Position numbers and translations under genes: made by a program. A stretch of DNA of 64,000 nucleotides, taken from positions 1 through 64,000 of the forward strand of contig NZ_SDKM01000023.1 of NCBI RefSeq assembly GCF_004519545.1, in the 5' to 3' direction. Source of the DNA: Nocardioides guangzhouensis (GTDB lineage Bacteria > Actinomycetota > Actinomycetes > Propionibacteriales > Nocardioidaceae). Positions 7,040-36,042 of the stretch are shown in pieces. The notes under the pieces were generated by a model that ran no database searches, was not told where the DNA came from, and saw only the letters and a program-made list of their open reading frames with translations. How positions within the stretch are numbered: the stretch's first letter is position 1; every line of letters begins with the position of its first letter.

Positions 7040-7381
7040 GAAGCAACCGTGCCACGTATCGCAGACGGCCGAGATCAGAGGAAGGGAAGGCCCTTTCAGT
7101 GCACCTGGACGCAGGTGAGTGCAAGGCGGTGCAGGGGCGTTGCCGTCAGTGACGGATGCGCGTTCGAAGTCGTTGCCGAAACGTTATCGATGCTCGGCTG
7201 GGCTCCCGGGCGCTCAGCGCTGCGGGCAACCTATTCCTTCTCAGCCCGATCAGCGCTCCTGCCAGGCACACCTGACCGCTCGAACTCCCCGGCACCCAGC
7301 AGTCGTACTCCGAGCAGTGGCCGGTTTCGGGAATCACGGTGCCCAGGGCTTGGGGATGGAGCCACCGTCCCCCGACCGTGG
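7040..7381. other. no gene seen
   Basis: 342 bases downstream of the Rep-like fragment's start. Several open frames overlap on both strands but none shows a domain, motif or convincing composition. It is probably further debris of the mobile element remains at 6.3-7.0 kb. Confidence 0.35.
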
Positions 7382-7660
7382 TCACAGGCGACGCAGGTTG
7401 CTCCCGCAAAGAGCTCGCAGCAGCTGGATCTCAAGTCTCATCTTGGGTGGCAGCGGCCACCCGTGCCGATCAAGGGCGCTCGCGTATGCCTCCAGTGCGT
7501 TCAGCGATGCCTTGCGGGCCTTGAGCAAGTAGTCGGCCCTGCCCGGCACGAGGCGTTGCGCCTCGTGTTGTGCCGCGCGCGTGCGCCGAACCTCCGCGAG
7601 GAGGGCCGGGAACTCGTCCTGACCGCGCAACTCGATGTTCTCCGGCACCGGATCGCCCAC
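7382..7660 (-). CDS. small helical hypothetical protein
   Basis: 92 residues starting at GTG, with GGGGAGAGG 8 nt upstream. The sequence is mostly helical with regular hydrophobic spacing (FPALLAEVRRTRAAQHEAQR; KASLNALEAYASALDRHGWP; KMRLEIQLLRALCGSNLRRL). There is no signal peptide or membrane segment. I do not recognise the family, but the composition is clearly protein-like and unlike the surrounding debris. It stands alone. Confidence 0.55.
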   Translation of the reverse strand: MGDPVPENIELRGQDEFPALLAEVRRTRAAQHEAQRLVPGRADYLLKARKASLNALEAYASALDRHGWPLPPKMRLEIQLLRALCGSNLRRL

Positions 7661-8280
7661 AGCGACCGCCTCTCCCCACCGGTGAGGTCAGCCCAGGCTG
7701 GGAGCGGCGTCGGCACGTGGTGAATAGCTGCACCCTACTCCGCCCAGCTTGATTCCGGGCTGGATCCGGATCGGGGTGGGGCAGGGATCGAAGGCGTTGG
7801 GCGGTCCCCGTTTCCCTGCAGGACCTGGGCCTGAGCGCCCCTCACGTAACGGCAGCACCGTCAGAACCCGACGCCACCAGCACCCAGCACTTCCGTGGAG
7901 CGATCGGCTACGTCCGGCCCTCTGTGCGGCCCTCGTGTTGCTGGATTCGCCTCTAAGAGATCAAGGCGCCGGCTCCGCCGGCTCACGGCCTGCGGGCGGC
8001 GCTGGCGCGCCGTCCTCGGCATGACAGCACCTCCGGCGCGATCTCGTAGACCCGGGCACGAGGGCCGCGGGAAGTGCGACCAGCGGTCATGGCAGGCGTA
8101 GTCTCTTCCCAGGCCGAGAGTTCCTCGTGACCCGCCGCCCAAGGCGAATCCGTTCCCGGTTGAAGTCACAACGAGCGTAGGACCGGCCATGGCCTGCTCA
8201 TCACCGTGCTCGTCGGGGGCGACGGAAGGTTCCATCGCGCGATGGCGCTGCGCGAGACCGCGAGGACGAAATAGGTCCTG
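7661..8280. other. long intergenic, no gene seen
   Basis: 620 bases without a supportable gene. Open frames on either strand are rich in Arg, Gly and Pro and show no motif. A short imperfect inverted repeat, GGCGCCGGCTCCGCCGGC, lies near 7962. The region must include the promoter of the downstream ATPase gene, but I cannot place it. Confidence 0.4.
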
Positions 8281-8694
8281 ATGGATAAGGGCTGGTCACA
8301 TAGGGGCGAGTTCGTCGCCGCGCTGAGCAGTGTCGCCGGGGCCCGCGCCTTCGTCGGCACGCACCTGATCACCCACGAGCTCGCGAACCTGCTCGACGAC
8401 GTACAGCTCGTCGTCAGCGAGCTCACCACCAACGCGCTGCTCCACGCAGACTCACGTTTCACCGTGACCCTCGAGGGCAGCACCGGGCTGGTCCGTCTCC
8501 GGGTGTTCGATCGGACAACTGCCAGGCCGGTCCCCGGAATCGCCCGGGCCACCGACACCGGCGGCCGTGGGCTGGCCATCGTCGCGGCCGTCTCGAGGTC
8601 GTGGGGCGTGCTGTACGACGACGAGGGCGGGAAATCGATCTGGGCTGAGTTCTCGACACGAGGGCAGGGCCGGGCGCACGTCGGCCCGGGCTGA
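8281..8694 (+). CDS. RsbW-like anti-sigma ATPase
   Basis: 137 residues, the usual length of the single-domain HATPase_c_2 proteins of actinobacteria. The N box is visible as VVSELTTNALLHADSRFTVT, then VRLRVFDRTTARPVP and the G box DTGGRGLAIVAAVSRSWGVL. These kinases phosphorylate anti-sigma antagonists or bind sigma factors. The SpoIIE phosphatase at 1921-3768 is the reverse enzyme type, but pairing is only inference. It is convergent with an ANTAR gene. Confidence 0.87.
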   Translation: MDKGWSHRGEFVAALSSVAGARAFVGTHLITHELANLLDDVQLVVSELTTNALLHADSRFTVTLEGSTGLVRLRVFDRTTARPVPGIARATDTGGRGLAIVAAVSRSWGVLYDDEGGKSIWAEFSTRGQGRAHVGPG

Positions 8695-10602: not shown

Positions 10603-10713
10603 CCCGAGGCCGGTCCGGCCCGATGGTGAAGAAGCACCCGTTCACGGGATGCAGGTGGCCCGGGCCCGGGCGAAGCATGGCCATGACACACGCTTCCGGC
10701 GAATGGAGTGGTC

Positions 10714-12606
10714 ATGGGCAGGGCAGTCGGCATCGACCTGGGAACGACGAACTCGGTGATCGCGGCGAACGAAGGTGGGCAGCCGCAAGTCATCCCCAAC
10801 GTGGAGGGCAACCGGACGACCCCGTCCGTGGTCGCCTTCCTGGAGAACGGCGAGCGACTCGTCGGCCAGATGGCCCGGCGACAGGCGATCCTGAACCCGA
10901 AGGGGACGATCTACTCCGCGAAGCGTTTCATCGGCCACAAGTACGACGAGGTCAGCAGCGAGATGAACACCGTCTCCTTCGACGTGGTCGCCGGTCCCGA
11001 GGGCGCGGCGCGCTTCCAGGTCAACGGCAAGCTCTACGCACCCGAGGAGATCTCGGCGCAGGTACTCCGCAAGCTGGTCGACGACGCCGGGAAGTTCCTC
11101 GGCGAGCGGGTCACCGAGGCGGTCATCACCGTCCCGGCGCACTTCAACGACGCGCAGCGTCAGGCCACGAAGGACGCCGGCAAGATCGCCGGGCTCGAGG
11201 TCCTCCGGATCATCAACGAGCCGACGGCTGCCGCCCTCGCGTACGGGATGGACAAGCTCGAGAACGAGACCGTGCTGGTCTTCGACCTCGGTGGCGGCAC
11301 GTTCGACGTCAGCATCCTCACGGTCGGGGACGGCGTGGTCGAGGTTCGATCCACGGCCGGGGACACGCATCTCGGCGGCGACGACTTCGATCGACGCATC
11401 GTCGACTACCTGGCCGACGAGTTCAAGAAGTCCAACGGCATCGATCTTCGCGAGGACTCCCAGGCTCTCCAGCGCCTGTTCGAGGCTGCCGAGAAGGCCA
11501 AGGTGGAGCTGTCGGCGGTCACCCAGACCGCCGTCAACCTCCCCTTCGTCACCGCTGACGCCTCCGGGCCCAAGCACCTCAACGTCAACCTGATGAGGTC
11601 CACCTTCGAGCAGCTCACGGCCGACCTCGTCGACCGCTGTCTCGGCCCGGTCAAGCAGGCCATGGAGGACGCCAAGGTCACCGCCGACGACATCGACGAG
11701 GTCATCCTCGTGGGTGGCTCCACGCGGATCCCGGCCGTGCAGGCACTGGTACGCCGCCTGACCGGTGGCAAGGAACCCAACATGACCGTCAACCCGGACG
11801 AGGTCGTGGCCATCGGCGCGGCCGTCCAGGCGGCGATCATCAAGGGCGATGTCAAGGACGTGCTGCTGCTCGACGTCACGCCCCTGTCGCTGGGTCTGGA
11901 GACGATGGGTGGGGTGATGACCAAGGTCATCGAGCGCAACACCACCATCCCGGCCCGACGGACCGAGATCTTCAGCACCGCGGAGGACAACCAGTCCGCC
12001 GTCGACGTCGTCGTGCTCCAGGGCGAGCGGGAGAGAGCGGCCGACAACCGCGTGCTGGCCAGGTTCCGGCTGGAGAACATCCGCCCCGCGCCGCGCGGGG
12101 TGCCGCAGATCGAGGTGACCTTCGACATCGACGCCAACGGCATCCTGCACGTGTCGGCGCGCGACAAGGACACGGGCGCCGAGCAGCAGGTGACCATCAG
12201 CGAGACCTCCACGCTCAGCCAGGAGGAGGTGGAGCGGATGATCAAGGACGCCGAGACCCACCGTGGTGAGGACGCCGCCCTGCGCGAGCGGGTCGATGCC
12301 CGCAACGAGCTCGACTCCGTGGCCTACCAGGTGCGCAAGGCCCTCGACGAGGCCGGCGAGTCGGTGGCCCAGCACGACCGGGCTCGTGCCGAGATGTTGG
12401 TCGAGGAAGCCAGGCAGGCCGTCGAGGGTGACGAACCCGTGGACCGCCTCCGCGCCCTGACCGGCGAGCTCCACCAGATGAGCCAGGTGCTCAGTGCCGC
12501 AGCCCGGGGTGGCGGTGGGCCGTCGACCGGGTCGGCGAGCGCCCCCGACGAGATGTCGGACAGGGATGACGACGACGTCATCGACGCCGAGTTCACCTCC
12601 CACTGA
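10714..12606 (+). CDS. dnaK: molecular chaperone Hsp70
   Basis: 630 residues, normal for DnaK. The ATPase signature begins [20 protein letters not shown]. Further Hsp70 signatures are [20 protein letters not shown] and [17 protein letters not shown]. The substrate-binding domain starts near [20 protein letters not shown], and the helical lid and acidic tail end in [12 protein letters not shown] at 10714 is chosen over the in-frame GTG at 10708. It opens a nine-gene run of overlapping or near-touching genes. I found no HAIR or CIRCE element upstream, so the usual HspR/HrcA control is not evident. Confidence 0.97.
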
Positions 12607-13160
12607 TGGCCATGTCCGACCACGAGGCACCGACGTCCGAGGCTCCCACGAACAGGACCGGAGGCGACGAGGTGCCGGCGAATGATGCCCCGAAGCAGGG
12701 CGACGAGGCACCCGAGCGCGTCGACCAGTCGCGCCAGGTCGCCGAGCTGGAGGACGCGTGGCGGCGTACGGCTGCCGAGCTGGACAACTTCCGCAAGCGT
12801 TGCGCGCGCGACGTGGTCCGCGGCCGCGAGCAGGAACGGGCGGCCGTGGCCACCAGCTGGCTGCCCGTCCTAGACAACCTGGAGCGAGCCCTCGAGCACG
12901 CGTCGTCCGATCCCGACTCCGTGGTCGAGGGCGTCCGAGCCGTGCTCGCGCAGGCGGTCGGCGTCCTGGCCGACCTCGGCTACCCGCGTCGCGACGACGA
13001 CGGAAGGGCCTTCGACCCCGCCGTGCACGAGGCGGTCAGCACCGTGTCCGGTGAGGGGCTGACGCCCGGCACCGTGGCGCAGGTCGTGCGCCCCGGCTAC
13101 GGGCCTGATGACAAGCTCCTGCGTCCGGCCGCGGTCGTGGTGGCCACCAGGGCATCCTGA
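12606..13160 (+). CDS. grpE: nucleotide exchange factor GrpE
   Basis: 184 residues; TGATG joins it to dnaK. The N-terminus is acidic and disordered. The coiled region holds QVAELEDAWRRTAAELDNFR with KRCARD, and LPVLDNLERALEH is the GrpE signature. A beta-wing C-terminal domain follows (HEAVSTVSGEGLTPGTVAQV, then RPGYGPDDKLLRPAAVVV). It drives ADP release from DnaK. Confidence 0.95.
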   Translation: MAMSDHEAPTSEAPTNRTGGDEVPANDAPKQGDEAPERVDQSRQVAELEDAWRRTAAELDNFRKRCARDVVRGREQERAAVATSWLPVLDNLERALEHASSDPDSVVEGVRAVLAQAVGVLADLGYPRRDDDGRAFDPAVHEAVSTVSGEGLTPGTVAQVVRPGYGPDDKLLRPAAVVVATRAS

Positions 13161-14137
13161 TGGCCAAAGACTTCTACGAGGTCCTCGGGGTCTCCCGCGA
13201 TGCCGACCCGGCCGACATCCAACGCGCCTATCGCAGGCTGGCGCGCCAGAACCACCCGGACGTCAACAAGCACTCCGAGGCGGAGGAGCGGTTCAAGGAC
13301 ATCGCCGAGGCCTACGACGTGCTCTCGGATCCCGAGCTGCGTCGCCGCTACGATGCCTTCGGCGAGGACTTCCGGCGCGTCCCTCCCGACACGGATCCGG
13401 CCGCCTGGCGCCAAGCCCGAACCTACGCCGACGCCGGGGCAGGCGCGCGTGGCCGCTGGTCGTCGGGGGCCGGCCCGTCGGGCGGTTTCGGAGCCGGCGA
13501 CTTCGGTGACGAGATCGACATCGAGGACCTGCTCGGCGGGATCTTCGGCGGCCGGGGGCGCGGCGGTCGGGGCCGGGACGGTTGGGGACCGGGACCGGTC
13601 CCGGGCTCCGACCACGAAGCCGAGGTGGAGGTCTCGGTCGAGGAGGCGTACCACGGCACCGAGCGCAGCTTCACGATCAGCGGTCCCGACGGCCCCCGCA
13701 CGCTCGACGTCACCATCCCGGCGGGAGTGGTCGACGGGCAGCGGATCCGGCTGCGCGGTCAGGGCGGCCCTGGCAGTGGCTCGGCGGCGGCCGGAGACCT
13801 GTACCTGGTGGTCCGGATCGCCGACCACCCGCGCTACCGGGTCGAGGGTCGCGACCTGCACGCACTCCTGCCGATCACTCCCTGGGAGGCCGCCCTGGGC
13901 GCTTCGGTGTCCGTCGACACTCCCGGAGGGACCGCCACGGTGAAGGTTCCGGCAGGCTCGTCCAGCCACCGCCGCTTGCGGCTCAAGGGCCGCGGTCTTC
14001 CCCACAGACGAGGCGAGCCGGGGAACTTCTACGCCGAGCTGCAGGTCCGCGTGCCCGGGACCCTCACCGACGAGGAGCAGCGGCTCTTCGAGGAGCTCGC
14101 GAAGGTGTCCGGCTTCGACGCGAGGAGCAGACGATGA
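13160..14137 (+). CDS. DnaJ/CbpA-type Hsp40 without zinc finger
   Basis: 325 residues. The J domain holds HPDVNKH (the HPD tripeptide that stimulates DnaK). A Gly/Phe-rich linker ([20 protein letters not shown]) leads directly into the two C-terminal substrate domains. The four CxxCxGxG zinc repeats of classical DnaJ are absent, so this is a type II (CbpA-like) co-chaperone. The next gene encodes a CbpM-like modulator, which fits. TGATG links it to grpE, and ATGA overlaps the next gene. Confidence 0.93.
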
Positions 14138-14444
14138 CAGCGGGCACACACTTCGCCCTCGCTCGGCCCTACAGGCTCAGCCTGGACAGCTATGCACAGG
14201 TCACCGGCGTACATCCCGAGCTCGTGCGCCGCCTGGTTGCCCTCGGACTGCTGGACGTCACCCGCGACGCGCAGGGCCGCTTGTGGTTCAACCCTTCCCA
14301 GGTGAAGGAGATGGCCAGGATCCAGCGGCTGCGGATGAGCCTGAACCTCAATTACTGCGCCATCGGGCTGGTCGTCGAGCTGCTCGACAGGATCGCAGAG
14401 CTGGAGAAGGCACAACGGCGTACGTCACGACGAGGAGGCGCTCC

Positions 14445-14454
<10 letters not shown>
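14134..14454 (+). CDS. CbpM/MerR-like chaperone modulator
   Basis: 106 residues beginning [20 protein letters not shown]. It resembles the MerR-type winged helix of CbpM/HspR proteins: [20 protein letters not shown], then [19 protein letters not shown] and a C-terminal helix [20 protein letters not shown]. CbpM binds the J domain of CbpA and inhibits it. HspR, which represses dnaK, has a related fold, so repression of this operon is an alternative role. The lack of an inverted HAIR repeat upstream of dnaK favours the CbpM reading. It overlaps both neighbours. Confidence 0.8.
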
Positions 14455-17077
<2,623 letters not shown>

Positions 17078-17081
<4 letters not shown>

Positions 17082-17530
17082 CCGCGACCACCCAGAGGTC
17101 GACGAAGGTCGAGTGCATCAACTGCGGGGCCAGGAACCGCGTTCCGGCGGTTGCCGAGGGCACGCCACGCTGCGGGAAGTGCAGTACTCCGCTGCGTTGG
17201 GTGGTGGACGCGAACGACGACGAGTTCCACGCCGTCGTGGACGAGTCGAGCTTGCCCGTGCTGGTCGACGTGTGGGCTCCGTGGTGCGGCCCCTGCCGGA
17301 TGGTCAGCCCAGCCCTGGAGAGGCTGGCCGGGGAGCTGGCCGGCAACCTCAAGCTGGTCAAGGTCAACGCCGACGACAACCCAGAGGTGAGCCGGAGGTT
17401 CGAGGTCCGGTCGATCCCGACGCTGGTCCTCCTCGACCACGGCACGGTCGTCGACAAACAGATCGGCGCCCTTCCGGAGCACCAGCTGCGCTCGTGGCTC
17501 GAGTCCAAGCTGCCGACGGGGGCGTCATGA
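17078..17530 (+). CDS. thioredoxin with N-terminal zinc ribbon
   Basis: 150 residues, of the thioredoxin 2 (TrxC) type. The N-terminal pair [10 protein letters not shown] and CGKCSTP forms a zinc-binding ribbon. The thioredoxin fold carries the active site [15 protein letters not shown] and cis-proline [10 protein letters not shown]. It overlaps clpB by ATGA and is followed by a zinc-finger gene with the same overlap, so it is translated as part of the chaperone operon. A zinc-ribbon thioredoxin beside ClpB suggests repair under oxidative stress. Confidence 0.95.
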
Positions 17531-33009: not shown

Positions 33010-33735
33010 TCACAGCCACTGGCGGCCTCCCTGAAGTGAGGTGTAACGGTTGCGGGCTTCGGTGGGGCACGATTGGTCGACCGTCCGGTGCTGGGCGAGG
33101 CACTCGAGGACGCGCACGACGATGGCGGGCGGGTCGACTCTGAAGTATTGACGCAGGGCTGTGCGGGTGTCGGAGGGCCCGAAGCCGTCGGTACCCAGGG
33201 ACGACCAGTCTGCGTGAACGAAGGGGGCGATCTGGTCCGGCACCGCTCGCATCCAGTCCGACACCGCCACGACCGGACCGTTGTCCGGGTCCAGCCGGGT
33301 TGCGACGTGCGCGGTCCTTTGCGGTTCGTCGGGGTGGCGGTGGTTCCAGGCGTCGACGGCGAGCGCTTCCCGGCGGAGCTCGGTCCACGAGGTCACCGAC
33401 CAGACGTCGGCATGCACGCCCCAGTGGGCCTCCAGCATGCTGTGTGCCTTCAGCGCACACTGGACGGCGATACCTGAGGCCAGGATCTGCGCTCGAGGCT
33501 CCGGCCCCGGCTGGGCTTCGGACTAGCGGTGCATCCCGGCCAAGATTCCCGCGACGTCGGCGGTCGGGGGTTCTGGGGGCTGCAGGACCGGCTCGTTGTA
33601 AGGGGTGAGGTAGTAGAAGACTTCGGGGTCCTCGCCGGGTTCGCGGTTGCTGTACATCCTTCTCAGACCGTCCCGGACGGGCGCGTGACCGTGGGCGCCA
33701 TCTGCCGGGGACCGGCAAGAAGGTGCATCCCATCC
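33010..33735 (-). pseudogene. aceE: aceE (pyruvate dehydrogenase E1), 3' remnant
   Basis: Minus-strand reading gives the C-terminal ~240 residues of homodimeric pyruvate dehydrogenase E1: YSNREPGEDPEVFYYLTPYN, EPVLQPPEPPTADVAGILAG, then a TAG stop at 33525-33523. It continues in the same frame as RAQILASGIAVQCALKAHSM, WGVHADVWSVTSWTELRREA and VVAVSDWMRAVPDQIAPFVH up to the normal end region. Everything upstream of about 33735 (more than 600 residues) is missing. Truncation plus an in-frame nonsense codon mark it as dead; a complete aceE is presumably elsewhere in the genome. Confidence 0.85.
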
Positions 33736-33946: not shown

Positions 33947-35335
33947 ATGCATCCCCGCACGACGGTCGGGGGTCGGACAGAGGCGGCAGCGACGGCCTTC
34001 ACCTCGTCCCGCGACTGGCAGCAGGTACGCGAGTCCTGGACCGGGGATGCCGATCCAAGGGAAGGGGCGAGTTCGGTGACCACGACCCGACCGCGAGATG
34101 CCGGCGGCGTGTCCGGCGGCCCTAGAACCGTCGAGCCACGGTGGGGCTGGCCCGCCCCGTGGCCTCTCGCGCCCCCTCCTCCGCCACGCTCCGGGGACCC
34201 CCGCCTCGCTGCGCCCCGGGGCACGCCCGCCGGGCTCGGGCTCGGCGGGTTGTCGCGGCTGTATCGCGAGTCCGCGCAAAGTCCCTGGCGCGACGCCCTG
34301 GTGCGCGAGGACCTGGAGGACGGGTCGTTGGCCCGCCACGTGGCCGCAGGGGTTCGGGGCCTGTGCGCGAGCCCCGCCGTCTTCGCGCGTAGGCTCGGGA
34401 GCTCCGCGCGGTACCGCGAGCAGCTGTCCTGGTTGACCTCGACCGGCTGCAGTGCCGCCCAGGTCTACCGCGAGGTGGCAGCCGCCGACGTTCAGGCAGC
34501 GTGCGCGGTGCTGGGCCCGACATTCGAGGGCTCGCCGGAACCCGACGGACTCGTATCCCTCGACGTGGCTCCGCCTTTCGTGGCCAGCACGCGGACCGCC
34601 GTCGCCGCAGCGCATCGTCTGCACCACCGGATCGACCGGCCAAACTTCATCGTCGGGATCCGGGCGACTGCGCAAGGCGTGCCGGCGATTCAGGCGCTGG
34701 TCACCGCGGGCCGAAGCGTCAACGCCACGTCGATCTGCTCTCTGCGGCGCTACCGAACAGTCCTCGAGGCGTACGTCGCCGGGATGGAGGCATTCGTCGC
34801 TCGTGGCGGCAACCCGGCGAACGTCTACGGCGTGGCCACGTTCGCCGTGGCACTCGTGGACACATCGGTGGACAGCCGGCTCGCCGTTTCGACGGACAGT
34901 CGCGCAGCGGGGCTGCTCGGCGCCGCTGGTGTCGCTCAAGCGACCCTCGCTCACCGACTGTTCACCGACTGCTTCTCCACCTCCCGGTGGCGGCGCCTCG
35001 CCGACCTCGGCGCACGACCTCAGCGCCTGGCCTTCTCAACCGCCGGGACCGACGTCACCTCGCCGCAAGTGCGCAGGTATGTCCGGGAGCTGGTCCTGCC
35101 CAACACCGTGCATGCACTGTCGAAGGCCGGAATTGCGGCCCTCGACGGGAACCCAGCCCCGGTCAGCACCCTACCCGCGAAGACGCAGCGCGCCGACGCC
35201 GTCCTGGCGGATCTCGCCCACCTGGGAATCGACCTGGACGTCATCGGCTTGGCGCTCGAGGACAAAGCCGCCGCACAGGTACAAGGCTCGTTCGCCCGCG
35301 CGCTGGCTCGGATCGGGAGCAGCGAGCCCCGATGA
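33947..35335 (+). CDS. transaldolase homologue lacking catalytic lysine
   Basis: 462 residues including a Pro/Gly-rich N-terminus (about 1-90); the start could also be the GTG at 34077. The rest aligns by pattern with actinobacterial transaldolase: GVRGLCASPAVFARRLGSSA (normally TSNPTIF), DVQAACAVLGPTFEGSPEPD, RSVNATSICSLRRYRTVLEA, AYVAGMEAFVARGG. The Schiff-base lysine motif (IKIPAT in relatives) reads FIVGIRATAQGVPAIQ here, so Lys is Gly. The phosphate-binding Arg region (SRVDT) reads ALVDT. The fold is probably kept without aldol transfer. It overlaps the next membrane-protein gene by 4 nt. Confidence 0.78.
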   Translation: MHPRTTVGGRTEAAATAFTSSRDWQQVRESWTGDADPREGASSVTTTRPRDAGGVSGGPRTVEPRWGWPAPWPLAPPPPPRSGDPRLAAPRGTPAGLGLGGLSRLYRESAQSPWRDALVREDLEDGSLARHVAAGVRGLCASPAVFARRLGSSARYREQLSWLTSTGCSAAQVYREVAAADVQAACAVLGPTFEGSPEPDGLVSLDVAPPFVASTRTAVAAAHRLHHRIDRPNFIVGIRATAQGVPAIQALVTAGRSVNATSICSLRRYRTVLEAYVAGMEAFVARGGNPANVYGVATFAVALVDTSVDSRLAVSTDSRAAGLLGAAGVAQATLAHRLFTDCFSTSRWRRLADLGARPQRLAFSTAGTDVTSPQVRRYVRELVLPNTVHALSKAGIAALDGNPAPVSTLPAKTQRADAVLADLAHLGIDLDVIGLALEDKAAAQVQGSFARALARIGSSEPR

Positions 35336-36042
35336 TGACGGCGTACCGAGCCCTATGGTGGGTCTGCTCCGCCGCACTCGTCCTGATCGGAGCCGGCGCT
35401 GCGCTGACCCTCGCCCCGGCGGCCTTCGTGTTCCTGTTCCTGGCGTTCGCCACCGTCGGCGGCGTGGTGCGGCTCTGCCTGATCCCTGACCCAGACGCAC
35501 GTTCGCTTCGCGAGCAGGCACGCCTCATCGGCAGTGGTGCGCTGATCGCAGGTGCAACGGCCTGCGCGTTCGTCGGGTACGCAGCGCTGCTGGGAACCGG
35601 AGTGTTCCTGCTCGCCCTCCCCGTCCTGGGAACCTCGCCCTACGTCGTGGCCATCTGCGGCCGATGGCTGAGAGCGTGGCCCCCACCGCCGTCTGCCCCA
35701 ATGGGCCCGGTGATGCGCTCCCTCGCCTACGCCAGTCCGGAGTACCTGGGACCGCCGCCCCTGAGGGAGTTCGGCGACCTCACCGTCGAGGAACTGTGCC
35801 ACGCCTGGCGGACCAGCTACATCGAGCTGCAGCGGCAGACGAGACCAGCCCGCGTCCTTGCCCTCGTCATGCAACGGCAGCGGTATCTCGACGAACTCGA
35901 GCAACGCAACGCGCGCGGTTTCACGCAGTGGCTGGCCTCGGGCGCGCGACCGCCCGGCAACCCGCTGCCCTACATCGCGGGCGAACGCCTGGGCCATCCG
36001 ACGATCGACTGGGACGAGCTCACCCGTGGCCAGGACTGCTGA
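35332..36042 (+). CDS. membrane protein coupled to transaldolase-like gene
   Basis: 236 residues. Three to four membrane helices occupy about 1-125 (YRALWWVCSAALVLIGAGAA; AAFVFLFLAFATVGGVVRLC; GSGALIAGATACAFVGYAAL; LGTGVFLLALPVLGTSPYVV). A soluble C-terminal half follows, with LTVEELCHAWRTSYIELQRQ and RQRYLDELEQRNARGFTQWL; this segment recalls small helical domains found at the end of other actinobacterial membrane proteins. ATGA overlap ties it to the transaldolase homologue. Function unknown. Confidence 0.75.
   Translation: MMTAYRALWWVCSAALVLIGAGAALTLAPAAFVFLFLAFATVGGVVRLCLIPDPDARSLREQARLIGSGALIAGATACAFVGYAALLGTGVFLLALPVLGTSPYVVAICGRWLRAWPPPPSAPMGPVMRSLAYASPEYLGPPPLREFGDLTVEELCHAWRTSYIELQRQTRPARVLALVMQRQRYLDELEQRNARGFTQWLASGARPPGNPLPYIAGERLGHPTIDWDELTRGQDC

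Follow-up and report, generated by a model that had tools for sequence, protein, structure and literature searches.

A putative pseudo-transaldolase encoded in overlap with a membrane-protein gene in Nocardioides guangzhouensis

Introduction

Transaldolases act through a Schiff base formed on a lysine of a barrel strand. The locus described here raises the question of what a member of this family can be when that lysine is replaced, the gene stays open and its stop codon overlaps the start of a membrane-protein gene. The window, i.e. the whole stretch of DNA analysed, covers positions 1-64000 (64,000 nucleotides) of contig C83 in the 5.27 Mb genome of N. guangzhouensis (G000). It contains the gene in question, talX, and two other Nocardioidaceae genomes, G055 and G068, carry talX orthologues with 53% and 45% identity to the window domain.

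A sequence-only reading of this DNA had left two explanations side by side, a pseudoenzyme or a new activity on the transaldolase fold. The residue losses and the constraint on the protein now favour the first and leave the second less favoured. With a probability of roughly 0.6, talX would encode a rare pseudoenzyme, a non-catalytic partner that serves as scaffold or regulator together with the adjacent membrane protein (mem) or with an active transaldolase. Searches of a set of open-licence papers turned up no description of an inactive transaldolase relative.

Extent and fold of talX

The 462-aa open reading frame at 33947-35335(+), reported earlier as intact, is indeed present and open, but position 33947 is an unlikely start. 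Homology to transaldolases begins only at ∼34250, and in-frame ATG, GTG or TTG codons occur at 33947, 34076, 34109 and 34250. Of these, GTG 34076 is the most probable start, because a purine-rich stretch lies upstream and the resulting leader resembles that of the G055 orthologue. The gene then spans 34076..35335(+) and encodes 419 aa, an assignment based on the Pfam TAL_FSA and NCBIfam transaldolase matches, the two orthologues and the comparison of leaders. TTG 34250 is an alternative, and nothing was found in 33947-34075 that supports a coding extension up to ATG 33947.

The Pro/Trp-rich N-terminal leader (34076..34249(+)) reads VTTTRPRD...RWGWPAPW, and its counterpart in G055 MTTTPRQQ...GWAWPTPW; their local alignment score of 58 is matched by 7 of 2000 shuffles. 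The G068 protein begins MATVPRQ, and its leader resembles that of G055 weakly (94 of 2000 shuffles score as high) and the window leader not at all (913 of 2000). The window leader has no Pfam match. Its GC content by codon position (0.81/0.83/0.81) has no clear coding character, so that the start at GTG 34076 is likely rather than proven. Outside the window, at C83:72155(-) (L034:8155), a lone talX-type leader (VTTTGRHQDG...WGWPTPWIKW) stands behind an AAGGAGG motif and diverges from an SPFH gene. No transaldolase sequence was found after it, and it is possibly the relic of a second talX.

The remaining 361 aa (34250..35332(+)), supported by sequence matches in the PDB and by the predicted model, form the transaldolase-fold domain. 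Membership by descent in the transaldolase/F6P-aldolase superfamily follows from the TAL_FSA match (PF00923; residues 116-453 of the open reading frame, 100.7 bits for a cut-off of 27, E 1.2e-28) and from the grouping of talX with accessory transaldolases in the tree. The best PDB sequence matches are the transaldolases of Corynebacterium glutamicum (3r5e, 1.8e-45) and Neisseria gonorrhoeae (NgTal; 3clm, 1.7e-37). An AlphaFold model built from four alignment rows reaches a pLDDT of 67.7 and a pTM of 0.69, with residues 1-55 below 50. Its best Foldseek matches are transaldolases (3clm, E 1.8e-15), and VIA Z values against 7oey, 7bbw, 3clm, 7bbx and 3r5e lie between 27.0 and 27.4, these five entries being two proteins, the first four all one N. 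gonorrhoeae protein. The predicted fold is thus the TAL barrel, and the earlier observation that the fold-defining segments remain holds for both the family match and the model.

The NCBIfam transaldolase models give a less uniform picture. The window protein misses both cut-offs (291.5 for 367; 188.3 for 233.75), as does that of G068 (302 and 167.2), and the G055 protein passes the first (370.5) and fails the second (227.4). Since one talX clears a subfamily cut-off, automatic annotation can label such genes transaldolase.

Loss of active-site residues

Residues of the domain are numbered from 34250. The active-site strand of talX reads NFIVGIRAT, where 3r5e has NVMIKIPAT, and the lysine position, as placed by sequence alignment, is occupied by Gly136 (codon 34655..34657(+)), which lies within predicted strand 133-138 of the model. 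Both orthologues have alanine there, and NgTal and the two other transaldolases of the host have lysine. Among the transaldolase genes read in the fetched loci (90 distinct genes, repeats collapsed), 87 have lysine at this position and the exceptions are the window talX and its two orthologues; transaldolases that were unread or fragmentary might also lack it. The replacement of the Schiff-base lysine, read earlier from the FIVGIRAT segment, is therefore a property of all three genes.

Two further basic residues are missing. The SR-V-D motif (SRVDV in 3r5e) reads ALVDT, as had been noted, with Leu202 (34853..34855(+)) in place of an arginine that we take, from E. coli TalB R181, to bind phosphate; G055 has proline and G068 alanine. 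The lysine of the conserved WASTxxKN motif, presumably the approximate equivalent of TalB R228, is replaced by Asp268 (35051..35053(+)), by aspartate in G055 and by histidine or aspartate, according to the alignment, in G068. Some of these TalB residue numbers recur as mutant names in PDB titles. The three positions read G/A/A, L/P/A and D/D/H in the window, G055 and G068, against K/R/K in 80 of 80 other alignment rows, a count that includes some genes seen in two loci.

The losses reach beyond these positions. In the 108 columns where one residue occupies at least 95% of the 80 rows, the window keeps 68, G055 85 and G068 76, three of the columns missed by G068 being gaps. Five lysine-bearing accessory enzymes keep 96/104, 98/107, 100/104, 100/103 and 97/106 of their nearly fixed columns. 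All three talX have lost 14 of the conserved columns, K136, R202 and K268 among them, and all three retain 55 of the 108.

A relocated lysine was considered and rejected. The aligned talX rows contain 3, 2 and 3 lysines, and no lysine column is common to them, on a neighbouring strand or elsewhere; in the window domain all three lysines fall in the last quarter, beyond the strand of the catalytic lysine. A yeast transaldolase mutated at Lys144 is described as catalytically inactive (PMC8151747). Since all three proteins lack the lysine and the two other basic residues, transaldolase chemistry (EC 2.2.1.2) is very unlikely, and we infer that talX lacks transaldolase activity.

Distribution and phylogeny

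Genes of this type are rare. In a search of 341 genomes of the family with the talX alignment, three genomes alone score as talX, namely G055 at 674.8 bits, the host at 656.9 and G068 at 497.9 (a match covering profile positions 77-362); the next score is 437.2. Homologues with the same loss and the same kind of membrane-protein neighbour, for which the sequence-only reading had suggested a search, are thus present in two other genomes of this set. In samples of 394 genomes of the class and 396 of the phylum, only the host scored as talX; the best other scores, 451 and 432 bits, belong to proteins with the lysine. No relative appeared among the 112 stretches matched in a search of genome contigs with the talX protein, nor among the stretches matched in viral contigs with the talX alignment (41) or the mem alignment (8).

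In an IQ-TREE phylogeny of 39 rows the three talX form one clade (100/99) with end branches of 1.49, 0.59 and 0.94, against a median of 0.27. The window branch is the longest, and with its odd composition its exact place in the tree is unsure. The clade lies inside a group of accessory transaldolases, island- or plasmid-borne, that comprises JS614-type genes and those of Rhodococcus plasmids and is parted from housekeeping transaldolases by a long branch (100/100). Next to it stand the accessory genes of G232 (92/79) and G262 (98/89), both of which bear the lysine. In the simplest reading, the lysine was lost once, before the split of the three talX. The accessory transaldolases of G262 (L131:7925-9031) and G232 (L132 near 7306-8394) keep the lysine, but positions that hardly vary elsewhere are changed in them (N158T; S201A), which may be a sign of early relaxation.

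Genomic setting

The host has two further TAL_FSA genes, both with the lysine, at C123:100364 and at C83:65031(-), the latter ∼1 kb past the window end. Accessory transaldolase genes recur in an island that contains varying subsets of SPFH/band 7, DUF488, PucR-type regulator, DoxX-like and GTP cyclohydrolase I genes, together with FAD oxidoreductase, GH15, GAPDH and pyruvate dehydrogenase E1 genes (names from Pfam or record annotation). The order in G068 is SPFH, DUF488, talX, mem, DoxX-like and the accessory transaldolase tal2. In the host, ∼29 kb separate talX and mem from tal2 (C83:64995-66098), and the two genes adjoin a C-terminal fragment of pyruvate dehydrogenase E1 (33043..33723(-); residues 675-903 of 919), which matches its full-length paralogue at C83:76306 by tblastn at 61% over 231 aligned positions and whose region includes a Pfam Transketolase_C_1 match in the open reading frame 33010-33438. 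The fragment is probably the scar of an island rearrangement. Read from its gene content, the talX/tal2 island may be a stress or redox island. An alignment of the three upstream regions with MAFFT gave no convincing common promoter.

Other parts of these replicons deserve mention. Hsp70, GrpE, DnaJ, Clp-type AAA and thioredoxin genes (Pfam) are clustered at 10708-17530 of the window. The JS614 plasmid carries a full transaldolase gene adjoining mem and, in addition, a 66-residue C-terminal transaldolase remnant (L043:17539-17736), followed directly by a small uncharacterised gene and GH15.

The mem gene (35332..36042(+)) overlaps talX in the motif ATGA, its ATG beginning at 35332 and the talX stop TGA lying at 35333-35335. 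The coupling noted in the window recurs in G055 and G068 with the same overlap (3/3). Hydrophobic helices are predicted in the N-terminal half of the protein, whose C-terminal tail ends IDWDELTRGQDC; no Pfam or NCBIfam match was found. The mem model has low confidence (pLDDT 57.8, pTM 0.31; helices 2-26, 29-50, 59-87, 89-100 and 103-115) and is too poor for a fold search.

Relatives of mem adjoin active transaldolase genes on the JS614 plasmid (mem at 200007-200660), on Rhodococcus plasmids and in G227 and G172. In G289, a genome flagged as belonging to the same genus as the host, a mem match lies at 199950-200651, close to the coordinates of mem on the JS614 plasmid. In 21 of 26 fetched mem-like loci, no transaldolase gene lies inside 1.5 kb, and none was found within the 16.7 kb read in Terrabacter. 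As mem occurs without a transaldolase gene and also beside active ones, mem alone is no pointer to a pseudoenzyme. Gene order differs as well, with talX before mem in the talX loci and mem before the transaldolase gene on the JS614 and Rhodococcus plasmids. A wider uncharacterised membrane-protein family (mem-like loci L047-L072) includes mem and occurs in 56 of 294 genomes of the family, with up to 5 copies in one genome (G046), and in 11 of 394 of the class.

Selection and alternative explanations

Loss of catalytic residues could also mark a new enzyme on the transaldolase fold, with a remodelled pocket, another substrate and a lysine-independent reaction. Pocket changes are indeed common to the three proteins (loss of the lysine, V159A, L161S and N288H), parts of the catalytic site persist, i.e. 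the WxDxL Asp and the NVT Thr in 3/3 and an acidic residue, Glu or Asp, in the place of the VSxE Glu, and 5 of the 14 commonly lost positions bear an identical new residue (A159, S161, G194, L260 and H288). However, this proportion (36%) is close to the background of 109 invariant columns among the 332 aligned codons of the window and G068 (33%), which indicates no extra constraint on a new pocket. Moreover, other catalytic positions vary (N41 is S/N/H and N158 is N/H/D), and the basic residues that would bind the phosphate of the substrate are missing. A new activity is therefore an unlikely explanation.

A second alternative is a decaying duplicate. In that case talX would be what is left of an accessory transaldolase gene in an island undergoing rearrangement, and its reading frame would be open by chance or because selection on it ceased only lately. 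The pyruvate dehydrogenase E1 fragment just upstream and the lone leader at C83:72155(-) fit such a history, and the remnant on the JS614 plasmid indicates that transaldolase copies do decay on such islands. In keeping with it are also the long window branch and pairwise NG86 dN/dS ratios of 0.41 (window-G055), 0.50 (window-G068) and 0.41 (G055-G068), rough values with dS near 1; the ratios are lower, at 0.28-0.38, in three pairwise comparisons of accessory genes that are active. In G068, talX lacks ∼27 internal residues and mem ∼46, both in frame (L038:10798-12443), which may reflect joint decay or a linked shortening of partners.

Against decay, the gene is open and overlaps mem in 3/3 genomes, and all three proteins retain 55 of the 108 positions that hardly vary among active enzymes. 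Differences between the window and G055 are most frequent at third codon positions (0.55, versus 0.35 and 0.27 at first and second), and amino-acid identity in the codon alignment is 0.52. Simulated neutral drift at a divergence of 1.0 brings identity down to 0.20 (0.14-0.26), and the frame stays open in 0.8% of single lineages; the simulation started from the window sequence, not the ancestor, had no insertions or deletions, and gave a third-position difference of 0.52 in the printed pair. Thus, an observed identity of 52% versus ∼20% under drift, together with three open genes, points to constraint on the protein through much of the time since the split. The deletions in G068 and the dN/dS above that of active relatives suggest that there may have been partial relaxation, or a recent release from selection in one lineage. 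Simple decay, which the sequence-only reading had held against itself should dN/dS prove high, is an unlikely description of talX, although the ratios are raised; codon statistics and simulation led to its rejection as the main reading, and as a rival it is improbable.

Finally, talX might still be an active transaldolase or aldolase that uses a lysine elsewhere or works by an unusual mechanism. Homology over the full barrel would agree with this, as would the NCBI subfamily model that would call the G055 copy a transaldolase (370.5 for 367). The idea is nevertheless highly improbable, with no lysine column common to the three, the window lysines all past the catalytic strand and both further basic residues lost.

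Proposed role and comparison with known systems

Collectively, as far as sequence can tell, talX has the two marks of a pseudoenzyme, loss of catalytic residues and continued selection on the protein. It would be an accessory-transaldolase paralogue in which the barrel persists but the lysine and two more conserved basic residues are gone. The scaffold or regulator reading fits a barrel under selection beside a membrane protein. The talX protein could dock on mem and form a membrane-anchored scaffold, or it could pair with an active transaldolase of the cell and tune its activity, as PDX1.2 does for its paralogues. G055 (250 contigs, 99% complete) has no detected accessory tal2, only talX and one housekeeping-type gene. 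Hence talX may act with mem or with the housekeeping transaldolase, and an obligate pairing of talX with tal2 is weakened. Counting against the pseudoenzyme reading are the number of orthologues, three only and two of these from metagenome-assembled genomes, the window branch as the longest of them and the raised dN/dS.

It is tempting to go further, although on doubtful ground, and to see in talX and mem a membrane-anchored module from a mobile stress or redox island, in which the dead barrel, tethered via its leader or its surface, would capture or regulate an active transaldolase and steer the pentose phosphate pathway under stress. A Lys-Cys redox switch is described in N. gonorrhoeae transaldolase (PMC8964421); this idea was dropped for talX, as nothing tested links the switch to it. 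If the pseudoenzyme reading is true, a dead transaldolase that is conserved together with a constant membrane partner would tie an enzyme of central carbon metabolism to the membrane, and one could use it to ask what the barrel is good for once catalysis is gone.

Three known systems bear comparison. With transaldolase itself (EC 2.2.1.2; PRK03343, TIGR00876; 3r5e, 3clm), talX shares full-length homology, the predicted barrel and about half of the nearly fixed positions. It differs by the absence of the Schiff-base lysine and two basic residues, by the extra leader and by the overlap with a membrane-protein gene. The accessory tal2 genes beside mem, on the Nocardioides JS614 plasmid pNOCA01 and on Rhodococcus plasmids, belong to the same tree group and have partly similar neighbours (slipin/SPFH, DUF488, mem and DoxX-like genes, with folE and FAD oxidoreductase on the Rhodococcus plasmids), but they keep K/R/K and follow mem, whereas talX has lost these residues and precedes mem.

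The third system is PDX1.2, the pseudoenzyme of plant vitamin B6 synthesis, known here from an excerpt of one paper (PMC6829848). Its family is unrelated, its complexes with PDX1.3 have been solved, whereas talX is known from its sequence, and the excerpt mentions no membrane partner of the kind that mem would be for talX. Like talX, PDX1.2 is a β/α-barrel paralogue without key active-site residues in a cell where catalytic paralogues remain; according to the same excerpt, it is induced by heat stress and acts as a positive regulator of these paralogues (PMC6829848).
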